From assembly GCF_007997215.1 (NCBI RefSeq), contig NZ_VORW01000003.1, forward strand, positions 248,001 through 312,000: 64,000 nucleotides of DNA. The letters are read 5' to 3'. This document shows positions 18,095 through 30,740 of the stretch, in pieces. Under the pieces are notes generated by a model that worked only from the letters and a program-made list of their open reading frames with translations, ran no database searches and had not been told where the DNA came from. The translations under genes were made by a program, and so were the position numbers. Position 1 is the first letter of the stretch, and the number at the start of each line of letters is the position of its first letter. Source of the DNA: Algoriphagus aquimarinus (lineage in GTDB: Bacteria > Bacteroidota > Bacteroidia > Cytophagales > Cyclobacteriaceae).

Positions 18095-19084
18095 TTAAAA
18101 TCTAAACCGTGGTGTTCTTTGAATAACTCGTTGTACTTCTCTACTCATATCAGATAAAGTATAACGAAGCATCAATTCATGACTCGTAGGAGATTTAGCT
18201 TCAACCCCTGCGATGACTAAGTCAAATGCATAACCCAATTTCAATGAATTGTCTTTTAAGAGACTGTATCCTAAAATAAACGATACAGATTCCTCTCCCC
18301 TGAAAGCTACTCCTCCACTTATCTTATTTTGATGCGTAGCAATAACGCTCACTTCGTAAGAAAAATTATTAAATGAAACTGATTTTAGCAGAAAACTAGG
18401 CTCAATAGCAAGTTGTCCTACCGGTCTAAATCTATATCCTAACAATAAATAGGAATGGTTTTTCAACTGATTAGCGTAAGAACCATCACCAAAATCAAAG
18501 TTAGGCTCATTAATGTGACGACTACTTAAACCTATATAATAATCTCTTCCGTCCAGTAGCAAGCCTGCTCCAAAATTCATATTCACTTGACTCTCCTTAC
18601 CTGAATTCGGCAGGTTAGGTTCTGGGTTCACTACAATAAGCTCGCCATAATCTATCGAACTAGAATACATACCAATATAAGCACCAATACTTAACGTAGA
18701 TTTATTGAACTTTTTGTGATATGCGCCCTGAAGATTGACTTCCAAATTACCCGTAGCACCTATTTGATCATTGACAAGCGTGAGGCCATATCCAATGTTT
18801 TTACCTTCCAACCTTCCTTGAGCAGTAACTAATTGGGTTACAGGAGCCCCGCCTTGCGCAGAATTGGTTGTATAATTTAGCCATTGAGATCTATGTAAGG
18901 CCGAAAACCTGAATCCGCCCTCCTTACCCGCAAAAGCTGGATTATAATACATACCATTATACATGTACTGCGTAAATTGAGGATCCTGCTGGGCCATCAG
19001 CGAAGAAATCTCAAAACAAAAACAGAAGAATAGCAGGAGAATGGAATATCTCAAAAAGTATATAAAATGGCCTCTTTGAATCAT
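18095..19084 (-). CDS. PorP/SprF family type IX secretion outer-membrane protein
   Basis: The 329-residue protein has an N-terminal signal (hydrophobic stretch about 9-25, cut near LMA-Q) and then QDPQFTQYMYNGMYYNPAFAG, the diagnostic start of PorP/SprF proteins. The remainder alternates in short amphipathic strands as in a beta barrel. PorP-type proteins sit in the outer membrane with the GldKN ring and act in substrate attachment. It is directly upstream of gldK, matching the porP-K-L-M-N order known from Porphyromonas. Confidence 0.92.
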   Translation of the reverse strand: MIQRGHFIYFLRYSILLLFFCFCFEISSLMAQQDPQFTQYMYNGMYYNPAFAGKEGGFRFSALHRSQWLNYTTNSAQGGAPVTQLVTAQGRLEGKNIGYGLTLVNDQIGATGNLEVNLQGAYHKKFNKSTLSIGAYIGMYSSSIDYGELIVVNPEPNLPNSGKESQVNMNFGAGLLLDGRDYYIGLSSRHINEPNFDFGDGSYANQLKNHSYLLLGYRFRPVGQLAIEPSFLLKSVSFNNFSYEVSVIATHQNKISGGVAFRGEESVSFILGYSLLKDNSLKLGYAFDLVIAGVEAKSPTSHELMLRYTLSDMSREVQRVIQRTPRFRF

Positions 19085-24286: not shown

Positions 24287-24407
24287 ATTTTGACCTTTAT
24301 CTTTTAGCCTTTTTTAATTTAGACATTTTAACACCTGACTACGTTCAGTAAGTTAACCATCTTCATAATTTTCCATTCCGAATGAGTATTATTGTGGCAG
24401 CGCATCC

Positions 24408-26468
24408 ATGATCAAACTACCACCAATCCATATCGGAAAGCTAAGTCTGTTGCTCGCCATCTTGGTGTGGCTTGCCTTGCTATTTGTGGATTTAGTGCGA
24501 CTGATTGGGGTTCTCAATCAACTGGAGTCAGGAATTGCAGTAGAGTTCACCTGGATTCTTCAAACACTCTATTTTATTTGTGTTTATGGATTTTATAAAT
24601 ATTCTATAAATAAGAGCTCCCAAAGTGACTTTCTTAATTTAATATGGAGAGGAGCATCTACAGGTATTTTTGCTGTAGCTATTTTTGTGATCATTGATTT
24701 GTTCAAATCTTCATTAGGCCAAAGCAAACTTGCAAAAGATCCTTTTCTTGACACCTTTTTCTACCATGTAGAATTTGGCCTCATTACCATTTTTGTGATT
24801 TCCACTGCTCTATTGTGGCAGCATCTGATCCTTTATCAAAAATCAAAACGTATAGTAAAACAGTGGCAAGCATATGAAATAGCTATGCTGATTTCCATGT
24901 TTGTCGTGTTTTTCGATAGAGGTAATCCTGAATACACCTTCTTTTTTAGCCTAGCACTACTTGGAATCTTAGGAACTATCCTTTCGGCAAATTTGAAATG
25001 GATCCCTTATCTCACGTTTAAAGAGAAATGGAAATCCTTGCTTTTCCTTGCCATTATTATTTTCTCCATTGCCTATTTGATATGGAATACTTACGTGTCA
25101 ACGGAGGACATTATCACTCCCGTAAATCTGTCTGGCAGTCTATTCATCCTAGCTCTTTTCTGGTTTATCTTAGTTTATGCTGTTCTCAGCTTTTTAGTAA
25201 CGCTTTTCAACCTTCCTACTTCGTCAGTTTTTGAACAAAAACTGACAGAGGCGATTAATTTTCAGCGCTTAAGTCAGTCCATACAGCCTGAAGAAAATGA
25301 GGAAGAAGTGCTAGACATTCTGATGGATTCTTGCATGAGTGCGGCATATGCAGATGCAGCTTGGTTGGAAATGACCAGTGAAGAATTTCCTGACGGATTT
25401 ACTCAGGAGCGTTTTATAGATCGAAAGACAAGAGAAGAAATTTCAGAACTTATTCAACACAATAAAACCGTTCAGGACTGGGCTTCGGAAAAGCGTCCTG
25501 ACAATCTTAGTCCTATTACTCTTAAAGTTATTAATCCGAAATACGAGTCACTCCTGCTGGTTCCTTTGGTAATAAATAAATCAGTATTCGGGAAAATTGT
25601 GCTTTGTAAAGAGGTACGAGATGGATTCAATAAAGAAATGTTGAACATCATCAGCACATTTGCAAGACAAGCCTGTATCGCGGTAGAAAACCATCGATTG
25701 CTCAATCAAGCAATCCTTAACGAACGCTACCAAGAAGAATTGAAAATCGCTCAGCGGGTACAGAAGTCTTTACTCCCTACTCAGTTAGATCATAATCAAA
25801 ACTTTGATATCTGTGCATATTCCAATGCTGCAGATGAAGTAGGAGGAGACTATTACGATACTTATAAATTAGATGAGGATCGCTACGTATTGATTATCGG
25901 AGACGTATCCGGTAAAGGGACTTCTGCTGCATTCCACATGTCTCAGATGAAAGGAATTTTTCAGAGTCTGATACAATTAAATCTAAGCCCATCGGATTTT
26001 ATGATCAAAGCCAATTCTGCTTTGAGTAAATGTCTGGAAAGGAACCATTTTATTACAGCATCGATTTTCATCATCAATACAGCACAACAAACCATTTGTC
26101 ATTCTCGAGCAGGTCATGTACCGACGCTTTTTCATCAGAAAAGTCTTAATAAATCTGAATATTTACAGATTGATGGCTTAGGCTTAGGTATTTTAAGAAA
26201 CATGCAATATGAAAAACACGTTGTGGAGAAGACATTTACCTATCAATCCGGCGATGCGCTAGTCCTATTTACAGATGGTATCGTAGAAGCAAAAAATGAA
26301 AAATCACAACAATTTGGTTTTGAACGGATCAGAACCCTATTAGAAGTATATCACGAACTAAGTCCACAAGAAATTCAGACTAAAATTATTGATTCCTTGC
26401 ATGCCTTTGTCGGTGGCGATAGATTAATAGACGATGATTATTCTATGATGGTGGTGAAATTTACCTAA
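24408..26468 (+). CDS. Membrane-anchored PP2C phosphatase (SpoIIE type) with GAF domain
   Basis: The 686-residue protein has about seven membrane helices (residues 10-265), a short linker, a GAF-like sensor domain (about 285-425, ending FARQACIAVENHRLL), a coiled linker (ILNERYQEELKIAQRVQKSLLP) and a SpoIIE-type PP2C domain. All metal-binding motifs of the phosphatase are there: GGDYYD, GDVSGKGTSAAF, the RAGH motif, LFTDGIVEA and DDYSMMVV. Such enzymes dephosphorylate STAS proteins in partner-switching systems. The next two genes encode exactly the STAS and kinase partners. The signal it senses is unknown. Confidence 0.93.
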   Translation: MIKLPPIHIGKLSLLLAILVWLALLFVDLVRLIGVLNQLESGIAVEFTWILQTLYFICVYGFYKYSINKSSQSDFLNLIWRGASTGIFAVAIFVIIDLFKSSLGQSKLAKDPFLDTFFYHVEFGLITIFVISTALLWQHLILYQKSKRIVKQWQAYEIAMLISMFVVFFDRGNPEYTFFFSLALLGILGTILSANLKWIPYLTFKEKWKSLLFLAIIIFSIAYLIWNTYVSTEDIITPVNLSGSLFILALFWFILVYAVLSFLVTLFNLPTSSVFEQKLTEAINFQRLSQSIQPEENEEEVLDILMDSCMSAAYADAAWLEMTSEEFPDGFTQERFIDRKTREEISELIQHNKTVQDWASEKRPDNLSPITLKVINPKYESLLLVPLVINKSVFGKIVLCKEVRDGFNKEMLNIISTFARQACIAVENHRLLNQAILNERYQEELKIAQRVQKSLLPTQLDHNQNFDICAYSNAADEVGGDYYDTYKLDEDRYVLIIGDVSGKGTSAAFHMSQMKGIFQSLIQLNLSPSDFMIKANSALSKCLERNHFITASIFIINTAQQTICHSRAGHVPTLFHQKSLNKSEYLQIDGLGLGILRNMQYEKHVVEKTFTYQSGDALVLFTDGIVEAKNEKSQQFGFERIRTLLEVYHELSPQEIQTKIIDSLHAFVGGDRLIDDDYSMMVVKFT

Positions 26469-26484
26469 TAAAAAGATAGCTAAA

Positions 26485-26817
26485 ATGCTAACAATAGAAA
26501 CCCTACAAGAAAACGGACACGATATACTATTCCTCAAAGGTGAGGTGGATGCGAGTAACTCTGTAATTCTGGATGAGGCAATTACCAAATTGGTTACTGC
26601 TGGTAGTAGCTCCATTTTAGTAGATGGTACAGGCTTGGAGTACATTTCTTCCGCGGGATTGGGCGTTTTTATGTCCTATTTAGAGGATTTCCAGGAAAAA
26701 GAAATTGACTTGAAAATCTATTCTCTCTCTGATCGCGTGTTTGAAGTGTTTAAAATTCTGGGCCTAGATCAGCTCATGCAAATTTATCCTGACAAAAAAA
26801 CTGCGCTACTTGCCTGA
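26485..26817 (+). CDS. STAS-domain anti-sigma-factor antagonist
   Basis: The 110-residue single STAS domain is of the RsbV/SpoIIAA type. The phosphorylation loop reads EYISSAGLGVF; Ser56 aligns with the phosphoserine of SpoIIAA. In the expected cycle the HATPase protein encoded next phosphorylates this Ser and the SpoIIE phosphatase upstream removes the phosphate. The gene starts 16 bp after the phosphatase and ends 1 bp before the kinase ATG. Confidence 0.93.
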   Translation: MLTIETLQENGHDILFLKGEVDASNSVILDEAITKLVTAGSSSILVDGTGLEYISSAGLGVFMSYLEDFQEKEIDLKIYSLSDRVFEVFKILGLDQLMQIYPDKKTALLA

Positions 26818-26818
26818 A

Positions 26819-27232
26819 ATGAAGCATCAGATGAGAATATCCTGTCAAACTACAGCGCTTTCTGAGCTGCGTGTCTTCTTAAAAAAGACCTTGGGAGAGT
26901 TGCGTATATCCGACATTGACCAACACCAGATCACACTGGCGGTGGAAGAGGTATGTGCTAATCTGATCATCCATTCCCATAACTGCAACGCCCAAGATTA
27001 CATCGAACTCAACGTCAAACAAAATCCCGGAAAATTAATTTTTGAAATTACTGATGAGGGTAAAGCCTTTAATATGCTTGATTATGAGGTTCCAGACCTC
27101 AATAAAGTAAAAGGAGAAAAGCGAAAAGGCGGTTTAGGCATAATTTTGGTCAAGAAGATAATGGATGAAATAGAATTTGAATCCAGCAAGGGCACAAATA
27201 CCTGTCGGCTGATCAAATGGTTTCAATCCTAA
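26819..27232 (+). CDS. RsbW/SpoIIAB-like serine kinase (HATPase_c)
   Basis: The 137-residue GHKL ATPase has the N box (EEVCANLIIHSH), the G1 box (TDEGKAF) and the G2 box (KGGLGIILVKKIMDE), as in RsbW and SpoIIAB anti-sigma kinases. The ATG at 26819 sits 1 bp after the STAS stop codon; a TTG three codons upstream would overlap. Lineages of this phylum lack sigma-B, so its output target is probably not a classical stress sigma factor. It completes a three-gene partner-switching module. Confidence 0.92.
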   Translation: MKHQMRISCQTTALSELRVFLKKTLGELRISDIDQHQITLAVEEVCANLIIHSHNCNAQDYIELNVKQNPGKLIFEITDEGKAFNMLDYEVPDLNKVKGEKRKGGLGIILVKKIMDEIEFESSKGTNTCRLIKWFQS

Positions 27233-27279: not shown

Positions 27280-27287
27280 TAAATTTG
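27280..27287 (+). promoter_or_regulatory. Possible promoter -7 box for the isomerase genes
   Basis: TAAATTTG fits the Bacteroidota TAnnTTTG -7 element, 33 bp before the start codon at 27320. A TTTG at 27262-27265 is closer than usual (14 bp), so support for the -33 element is weak. Confidence 0.3.
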
Positions 27288-27319: not shown

Positions 27320-29320
27320 ATGACAAACCGAACCATTTCGGCACTTATACTCACCATACTCCTAGCATTTGAATTCTCTGTCCCTGCGACGGCTATTGTT
27401 CAGACATCTGGGCAGGACGATCCATTAATGACCATAGGAGGAAAGACTGTGGACAAGGATGAATTGATCTATCTACTATCTAAAGGCAATAAATCTGAGC
27501 CTGGAACGCCTGGAATGTCCAGAGAAGAGTTTGAAGAAAACCTTGATCTTTTCACTAATTACAAGCTAAAAGTAAGGGAAGCTGAAGCAAAAGGACTCGA
27601 TCAATCAGAGGAATTTCTTAGAGAATTTGAGTCTTTTCGGGAAAACCTCAAAGCGCCATTTCTTATCCGAAATTCTTTGGAAGAGGGGGAACTAAGAAAA
27701 GCCTACTCCAGAATGCAGGAAATTATTCGAGCCAGTCACATTCTTCTAGAATTCCCGACAGATGCGAGTAAGGAGGATAGTTTGATTGTACTTCGAATGG
27801 CATTGAAAATCGAAGGCGAAATAAAAAACAATGGAAGTATAAATGAACTTGCAGTAGAATATTCAGATGATCCTTCCGCTCAGGTAAATAGAGGCGACTT
27901 GGGCTATTTTACCGCTCTACAGATGGTTCAGCCCTTTGAAGACGCTGCTTATAATTTACAGGCAGGACAGGTTTCAAGCCCAGTCTTAACCAATTTTGGC
28001 TATCATATCATCAAAGTATTCGATCGTCAACCCAATCCAGGACAGGTACGCGTTTCTCATATTTTGGTAAGAATAGATGAGAAATTGTCTAACGGCGAAG
28101 ATTTAGCAAAACGCAAAGTCGCTGATATCTATAATGAGATTCAGAAAGAAAGTACCATCTGGGAAGACATAGTAAAAAACTTTTCTGAAGATCCTGCTAG
28201 CAGTCAAAAAGGTGGAATGCTTCCTTGGTTCAGCGTTGGCTCGATGATTCCAGAATTTGAAATGGCGGCATTTTCACTGACTGAGACTGGAGAAGTTTCT
28301 CCGCCTATTCGAACACGCTATGGGTACCATATATTAAGATTAGAAAATAAAAGACCTGTTGAAAGCTTTGAAGTGATGGAAGAGAGTATTCGTTCCAGAA
28401 TATTGAGAGATTCTCGCTCTACGATGATTCAATCGCAGGTCATGGCTATTCAGAAATCCCGGTACAATTTCACCGAAAATGAAAAGAATATAGCCAAGTT
28501 AAAAGCTGAATTAAACACTACAACCAAAAATGGATTCGCTAGTGCTTTAGCCGAAAAAGATCTGGCCAGTGATCAGCTCTTTACCCTTCAGGGCAAAAGC
28601 TACATATCTCAGGATCTGGCTGATTATATGGCAGAAGAGGAAATCAGCCTGAAAAATAAAACAGGGACTTTTGATGCCTGGTACGAGCGCTTTGCAGCAA
28701 TGGAACTTAATAAGGCCGAAGAGGCTGATTTAGCTGCGAATAACAAGGAGTACCGTATGCTATTGAAAGAATATAGAGACGGTATTTTGCTGTTCTCACT
28801 CATGAATGACGAAGTATGGCAGAAAGGTCTCATGGATTCAGTAGCGCAAAAGACATTTTACGAAAAAAACATCCGGGACTACCAATGGAAGGGACGAGTG
28901 AATGCTTACATCGTCAAAGTACTTGATATCACTCAGCTAGATGCTGCTAGAAAAATATTACAAGGGAAAACCCTTTCGGAGGAGCTGATTTCTTCTTTCG
29001 AAAGTACTTATCAAACCTCCAATTCTTTGGCATATCAAACAGAAGCTGGTAACATCGAATACGGTGAGCATGCCGTTTTGTCTAAGGCAGATTTGAAAGA
29101 GAGCTATCAGGAACTTGAAGTAAATGGTCATTTGCATTTAGTTCTCTTAGGAGAAAGAATTCCAGCGAGTCCAAAAAAATTCGAAGAAACACGGGGATTG
29201 GTAATACGAGATTATCAGGAATATTTGGATGAAAACCTCGTTGAATCACTCCGTAAGAAGTACCCAGTTAAGATCAACCCTAAGGCTAAAGAGGAAACTT
29301 TCATAGCTTTGAATCAATAA
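27320..29320 (+). CDS. Periplasmic peptidyl-prolyl isomerase with two PpiC domains
   Basis: The 666-residue protein has a signal peptide (about 1-25), a SurA_N-like helical segment ([22 protein letters not shown]) and two parvulin domains, at about 135-240 ([10 protein letters not shown] to [10 protein letters not shown]) and 244-350 ([10 protein letters not shown] to [10 protein letters not shown]). The C-terminal 300 residues are poorly conserved. Such proteins fold or escort outer-membrane and secreted proteins. It is followed 52 bp later by a second isomerase gene, and the pair probably forms one operon. Confidence 0.9.
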
Positions 29321-29372: not shown

Positions 29373-30740
29373 ATGAAATTGCTAAACCGACTTACATTCA
29401 CTCTAATCGCCAGCTTGCTGATAACTGCATCATTTGCTCAAGAAGCGCCACCAACAGGTCAGGTTCTTGACAAAATCGTAGCTAAGGTGGATAATTATAT
29501 CTTATTGGAATCAGATGTACAGAAAGCATATATAGAAGCTGTATCACAAAACCAGCAGGGACAACCAACTGTTTCTCGATGCCAAGTATTTGAATCCTTG
29601 ATGATCAATAAATTAATGGTCGCTAAAGCAGAAGTAGATTCTGTAGTAGTCACTGACGCAGAAGTAATGCTTCAGACAGAGCAACGATTCAACATGGTCA
29701 TGCAACAGTTTGGTGGTGATGAAAATACACTTGTAGAGGCTTATGGCAAAACCTCAGATCAGCTGAAGGCTGAAATCGAGGACGTAATCAGAGAACAACT
29801 CATCGTACAACGTATGAGAAGTCAGATCACAGAAGGACTGACTGTGTCTCCCAATGATGTTAGAGAGTTTTACAACAGTATCCCAAAAGATTCCTTGCCG
29901 CTATTCACTTCAGAAGCTACAGTAGGTCAAATTGTAATAAAACCTAAAGTGAATCCTCAGACAAAAGATGATATTTTCAAGCAATTGAATCAATTCAAAA
30001 AAGATATCGGTGAAGGGAGAGCAGATTTTGCAGACCTTGCCAAACAGCATTCTGAGGATCCAGGCTCTGGAGCACAAGGAGGCGATCTAGGCTTTTTTAG
30101 AAGAGGCGAATTAGCACCAGAATTTGAGTCAACCGCATTAGCACTCAAGCCAGGTGAATTAAGTGATCCTGTAGAAACAGCTTTCGGCGTTCACTTGATT
30201 CAATTACTTGAGAGACGTGATGACGGTTCTTACAATTCAAGACATATCTTGAAGATTCCAAAGGCAACTGTAGCTGACATTGAAAAATCTGAGCGATACC
30301 TGGACAGTTTAAAAACTGAGATTGAAGCAGGAAGATTGGATTTCGCTAAAGCAGCAAAAGACTATTCAGATGACAGAAGCACTTCAGATGCCGGTGGTTT
30401 CTTCACCGATCCCTCCAACAATTCAAATCGTCTATCCTTAAGAACACTTGAAGATCCATTGCTATTCTTTATGATAGATACGATGCAGGTAGGTGATATC
30501 ACTATGCCGATGCAGTTTGAAGATCCAAGAGAAGGCACCAAGGTTCGGATTCTATATTATAAAGCAAAATACCCAGCTCACCGAGCCAATATGGAAGATG
30601 ACTACGAAAAGCTAAAAGCAGCTGCACTCCGTAAAAAAGAGGATGACCTTCTTGGCAAATGGTTTATTACGGCGAAAGAGGATATTTTCATTGACCTCGA
30701 TCCAGCCTATGATCGATGTAATGCACTCGCAGAGAAGTAA
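29373..30740 (+). CDS. surA: SurA-like periplasmic chaperone/peptidyl-prolyl isomerase
   Basis: The 455-residue protein has a signal peptide ([22 protein letters not shown]), a SurA N-terminal domain ([19 protein letters not shown]) and two parvulin domains, one complete at about 180-290 ([36 protein letters not shown]) and a second, diverged one at about 290-400 ([20 protein letters not shown]). This is the domain order of SurA, which carries unfolded outer-membrane proteins to BamA. It ends just before a strong terminator. Confidence 0.9.

Follow-up and report, generated by a model that had tools for sequence, protein, structure and literature searches.

The described systems closest to the locus analysed here are RsbU/RsbV/RsbW of Bacillus subtilis (sigma-B), SpoIIE/SpoIIAA/SpoIIAB (sigma-F) and RsbU/RsbV1/RsbV2/RsbW of Chlamydia. 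SpoIIAB grips sigma-F at region 3. In Chlamydia, RsbW has been reported in complex with the housekeeping sigma factor, sigma66 (available part of PMC11619594). For other described partner switches, among them SypE/SypA, HmpU/V/W and RbaV/RbaW, the target is unknown and need not be a sigma factor (available part of PMC8256260). No study of a partner switch of this type in Bacteroidota was found in the literature searched, with subscription papers and preprints outside its scope. To our knowledge, no defined partner-switching stress response is known in Bacteroidota.

The locus lies in a stretch of 64,000 nucleotides of Algoriphagus aquimarinus (Cyclobacteriaceae; genome of 5.16 Mb), referred to below as the window, and encodes a phosphatase, a STAS protein and a kinase (the trio; Table 1). 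Compared with RsbU/RsbV/RsbW, the three protein types were the same, and the STAS serine, the kinase box and the PPM metal site were kept; the phosphatase had a membrane-GAF sensor, whereas RsbU has an RsbT-binding domain, no sigma-B gene was found, and the kinase stayed below the NCBIfam cut-offs of the RsbW/SpoIIAB equivalogs (47.7 bits against 135 for TIGR01925; 45.3 against 145 for PRK04069). Compared with SpoIIE/SpoIIAA/SpoIIAB, the locus likewise combined a membrane PPM phosphatase with a STAS protein, and its kinase was closest to SpoIIAB among solved structures; no sigma-F was found, and the phosphatase scored 54.5 bits with the SpoIIE equivalog TIGR02865, whose cut-off is 490.8. The Chlamydia system shares the Gram-negative background and the presence of more than one STAS protein, and differs in the sensor domain of its RsbU phosphatase. 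SypE/SypA, HmpU/V/W and RbaV/RbaW differ in sensor architecture, and SypE joins kinase and phosphatase in one protein. A phylum-wide switch, catalytically intact by sequence and without the expected sigma factor, makes it possible to test directly which targets RsbW-type kinases have when sigma-B/F is absent, and named, culturable species of Algoriphagus, Belliella and Echinicola are available for testing the switch.

Gene layout and protein domains

The three genes lay back to back, separated by 16 and 1 bp, as claimed in the original prediction, and open reading frames and Pfam agreed. The start of the kinase was taken as the ATG at 26819; the mechanical list of open reading frames begins at TTG 26810.

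Table 1. Coordinates, in the window, of the trio, its promoter-like elements and the genes that follow it
Feature	Position	Strand	Remarks
Phosphatase gene	24408..26468	+	686 aa; 8 predicted membrane helices, GAF-like domain, linker helix, PPM/SpoIIE domain
STAS anti-anti-sigma-type protein gene	26485..26817	+	110 aa; Ser56 kept
RsbW/SpoIIAB-type serine kinase (GHKL) gene	26819..27232	+	137 aa from ATG
Promoter-like -7 element of the trio, TATTATTG	24387..24394	+	One base off TAnnTTTG
Promoter-like -7 element 5' of the PPIase gene, TAAATTTG	27280..27287	+	Conserved TAnnTTTG
PpiC-type peptidyl-prolyl isomerase (PPI), neighbour outside the switch	27320..29320	+	Pfam; conserved neighbourhood of the order
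SurA-like isomerase, neighbour outside the switch	29373..30740	+	Pfam; beside a PPI in 10 of 15 genomes that lack the trio

The phosphatase matched Pfam SpoIIE (8.6e-42) and, weakly and below the curated cut-off, a GAF domain. Residues were counted over 84 rows (the window plus 83 complete trios), and the metal-site aspartates D481, D499, D623, D676 and D677 were invariant (84/84). An AlphaFold run (46 alignment rows, mean pLDDT 81.3, pTM 0.46) modelled residues 9-267 as eight long helices, where seven had been claimed. In the same model, a mixed domain (about 298-401) coincided with the Pfam GAF region, and one long helix (409-455) linked it to the PPM fold (466-685). Fold matches of the phosphatase domain were RssB, SiaA, SpoIIE and RsbX, with RssB and SpoIIE closest among solved structures; no known fold emerged for the membrane domain from the 50 PDB rows listed for the phosphatase, which were PPM phosphatases by title. 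An envelope signal arriving through the predicted membrane helices is plausible. Dimerisation of PPM domains through a coiled-coil linker has been proposed as a general mechanism of such phosphatases (available part of PMC12143880), and by analogy the linker helix would drive dimerisation in the Algoriphagus phosphatase too.

The STAS protein matched Pfam STAS (2e-15), exceeded the cut-off of TIGR00377 (anti-sigma factor antagonist) and was nearest to TM1442 and RsbV among solved structures. Retention of its phosphorylatable serine was borne out: Ser56 was serine in 84/84 rows and aligned with the RsbV serine of 6m36_B, which we take to be the phosphoserine; the neighbouring S55 was present in 81/84 rows. 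The kinase matched Pfam HATPase_c_2 (9.9e-23), and RsbW stood with SpoIIAB as its closest solved structures. Its Glu/Asn box (E44 and N48), its glycines G105 and G107, and R18, which aligns with SpoIIAB R20, were each present in 84/84 rows; D79 was present in 79/84 and replaced in 5/84, which was counted against the best explanation. With STAS serine, kinase ATP site and PPM ligands all in place, the trio is, by generic sequence features, a partner switch of known kind.

Conservation of the trio

With the phosphatase as query, 279 of 395 phylum genomes gave a match at 1e-10, paralogues included; at 1e-40, matches came from 184 of the 291 genomes searched in the order and from 41 of the 42 listed for the family. 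Stretches around the best phosphatase matches were taken at 98 loci, of which 96 were mappable (L083, at a contig end and without a phosphatase open reading frame, and L079, unmappable, were dropped). Phosphatase, STAS and kinase genes were contiguous at 83 of the 96 mapped loci across the phylum (41 of 51 in the order of the window and 42 of 45 outside it), a recurrence of gene order which argues that the trio is not due to chance. The trio is evidently under constraint.

At the other 13 loci, the phosphatase gene was not followed by a STAS-kinase pair. Three of these (L091, L093 and L106) had the kinase with no STAS called in between, and ten, all in the order, had a lone phosphatase. The STAS-kinase pair was found side by side at a distant site in all ten genomes with a lone phosphatase, and in a tree of 33 kinases those of the split genomes all clustered with the order's trio kinases (support 100/99), whereas the second kinase, represented by three sequences, fell apart from them. 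A kinase match of at least 67 bits occurred in 16 of 16 genomes with the phosphatase (the ten split ones and six others). Among 52 genomes termed phosphatase-less (no match at E<=1e-40 or, in the 395-genome set, none at 1e-10 or weak matches only), two had a trio-type kinase of at least 93 bits, a third was doubtful (55.9 bits) and 31 had no match; weak phosphatase matches in these genomes (about 1e-18 to 1e-34) were read as a paralogue. Since relatives share their history, only a small number of independent losses underlies all of these co-occurrence counts.

Upstream neighbours varied. GuaB (IMP dehydrogenase) was encoded ahead of the phosphatase, in the same orientation, at 22 of the 51 loci of the order (e.g., L073, L076, L168 and L178), also where STAS and kinase had moved off (L175 and L180), and HemW-DciA at 11 of 51. 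No gene fusion that could point to a target was recognised at the mapped loci, the 1395-aa open reading frame of L093 being taken as over-long.

Sigma factors and the target of the switch

The trio is very probably an active partner switch, and the probability that the module is functional and acts in trans is put at about 0.75, a figure that does not extend to what the target is. At rest, Ser56 of the STAS protein would be phosphorylated by the kinase. A membrane or GAF signal would then cause the phosphatase domain to dimerise through the linker helix and the STAS protein to be dephosphorylated, and unphosphorylated STAS would bind the kinase, so that a third partner would be freed or captured. 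No fixed neighbour of the operon fits this third partner, which would be encoded in trans; the next gene was on the opposite strand in 13 of the 42 complete trios outside the order, which leaves no co-transcribed downstream target at those 13.

Absence of a sigma-B or sigma-F factor, as originally claimed, agreed with the searches. None of 395 phylum genomes exceeded the cut-off of the sigma-B/F/G model (SigBFG, TIGR02980), a cut-off exceeded by 1 of 14 control genomes, and 392 had some match. The only SigBFG match of the Algoriphagus genome was below the cut-off and was the primary sigma factor; second matches of about 254-266 aa occurred in other classes of the phylum. Sigma70_r2 gave 19 matches in the Algoriphagus genome (18 above the curated cut-off), namely the primary sigma factor and 18 region-2 matches of ECF size (one below the cut-off). 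Region 3 was found only in the 287-aa primary sigma among the ten sigma proteins scanned, the other nine of the 19 being 163-195 aa in length and outside the scan. A hidden sigma-B/F was considered and rejected for this genome after the Sigma70_r2 and SigBFG searches and the region-3 scan of ten of the 19 proteins, with Sigma-54 outside their scope.

An output through a non-sigma effector is the alternative with most in its favour, although still a tentative one: free STAS or phospho-STAS would bind a cytoplasmic target directly, as proposed for SypA, HmpV and RbaV. The absence of sigma-B/F above the curated cut-off throughout the 395 genomes is consistent with it, as are the STAS proteins acting on unknown targets in other systems (available part of PMC8256260). 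The adjacent serines S55 and S56 of the STAS protein also resemble Ser56/57 described for RbaV. Against it, no target gene was constantly linked to the trio, and kinase R18 aligns with SpoIIAB R20, where an arginine is expected in sigma binders too.

The inference in the original prediction that, with sigma-B and sigma-F lacking, the kinase must act on something else went too far, since the primary sigma factor and the 18 region-2 matches of ECF size remain. The primary sigma factor was ranked first among single candidates because a SpoIIAB-like grip on region 3 would fit only this protein, and because of the complex of RsbW with sigma66 in Chlamydia (available part of PMC11619594). As the target it is possible rather than probable, and at ten loci outside the order an ECF sigma factor rather than the primary one adjoined the trio, which was counted against this explanation. 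So was the invariance of kinase R18, which may reflect binding of the STAS protein only.

These ten loci (L105, L107, L108, L110, L112, L114, L115, L118, L119 and L120) belonged to two distant families (f17 and f35, at a guess Ignavibacteria-like), and in each an ECF sigma factor (193-201 aa) and a protein of 377-527 aa lay upstream of the trio on the same strand. The gap between the latter protein and the phosphatase was 6 bp at L119, -4 bp at L120 and 49-261 bp at the other eight loci. The arrangement hints at an ECF sigma factor, or the anti-sigma factor of one, as the target, for which BtrU/V/W of Bordetella, with BtrS presumably as the ECF sigma factor, is a precedent. However, the arrangement was seen at none of the 51 mapped loci of the order of the window, and the 377-527 aa proteins had no Pfam match (three of ten scanned), "anti-sigma" being a designation by position. 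The best matches of the f17/f35 ECF sigma factors among those of the Algoriphagus genome reached 70-81 bits with the runner-up close behind, and the f17/f35 factor was rejected as a candidate in Algoriphagus for want of a clear orthologue. A target of this kind is doubtful for this locus. An 856-aa phosphatase (PDZ-like, GAF and SpoIIE; L108:3794-6364 at one locus) came after the extended operon at several loci.

Downstream isomerase genes

The trio could instead control the downstream isomerase and SurA genes, or their proteins, as an envelope-folding response. PPI and/or SurA followed 34 of the 41 complete trios of the order (PPI1 near in 32, PPI2-SurA directly next in two, L159 and L160), which makes the adjacency on this side an old one within the order. 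The gap between kinase and PPI1 was only 0-15 bp in five members of the family (L072, L073, L153, L156 and L158), and where the STAS-kinase pair had moved, PPI1 followed it in two of the ten split genomes (L303 and L306) and MoxR in one (L304). Conversely, the neighbour was absent from the trio at the 45 loci outside the order, and in 15 genomes without the trio SurA adjoined PPI in 10 and MoxR was next in 8.

A promoter-like element in the gap also stood against this reading. Elements of this kind were counted in 80 named Cyclobacteriaceae loci, all with the trio. TAnnTTTG occurred in 67 of the 80 gaps between kinase and PPIase genes (5.3 expected from single-base shuffles), and a relaxed TAnn[ACT]TTG, a pattern relaxed post hoc once the sequences had been inspected, occurred within 45 bp 5' of the phosphatase in 80/80 (7.4 expected from shuffles), with the shuffle odds overstated in both cases by the relatedness of the 80 loci. 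Strict TAnnTTTG was present in the last 110 bp 5' of the phosphatase at 17 of 80 loci. The consensus of the kinase-PPIase gap was TAAaTTTGTAAcATTGCA (79 of 80 gaps aligned), with the TAnnTTTG block conserved and the rest variable. In Bacteroides, the -7 element of the primary sigma factor reads TAnnTTTG (available part of PMC7366714). The element ahead of the trio, TATTATTG (24387-24394), may belong to a promoter that is weak or of a special type, and the isomerase and SurA genes are probably a transcription unit apart from the trio.

Thus, of the original suggestion that the isomerases are the output, the conserved adjacency stood, and the output itself was weakened by the promoter-like element in between and by PPI-SurA pairs kept without the trio; it is now improbable. 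Decay of the trio into an inactive relic is scarcely credible, its catalytic residues being invariant across phylum-wide divergence.

Related genes elsewhere in the genome

The Algoriphagus genome also encoded a second GAF-SpoIIE phosphatase (L034:4968-6179), a second RsbW-type kinase (L035:6367-6783, between ybeY-like and exoA-like genes), a second STAS protein (L036:5486-5833, adjoining a purA-like gene) and a third (L037:5981-6361, adjoining an rnz-like gene); the names ybeY, purA and rnz were read off the sequences. Among 33 genomes, the purA-side STAS protein reached at least 74 bits in 9 of 10 with the trio and in none of 23 without it, and the second kinase reached at least 146 bits in 10 of 10 with the trio and at least 112 bits in 2 of 23 without it; few independent losses lie behind these counts too. 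Outside the order, purA-STAS2 adjoined the trio locus at 8 of 45 loci, and another SpoIIE phosphatase lay directly 3' of the kinase at 24 of 45. The best reading of these patterns is that the trio belongs to a small network, with the second kinase and second STAS protein, whose parts appear to have been mostly retained or lost jointly.

A wider and unlikely extension would make the trio, the second kinase, the second and third STAS proteins and the second GAF-PPM phosphatase parts of a single network, ancestral in Bacteroidota, through which the primary sigma factor is gated. This would amount to a general stress response that uses no alternative sigma factor of the B/F group. Cytophagales and deeper classes would have retained the network, and many families of Bacteroidales and Flavobacteriales type would have lost it as a whole (taxon names as deduced by the authors).

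Two proteins, encoded at positions 18095-19084 of the window and at L036:610-1632 of the same genome, look like PorP/SprF, a family of type IX secretion to which both presumably belong.
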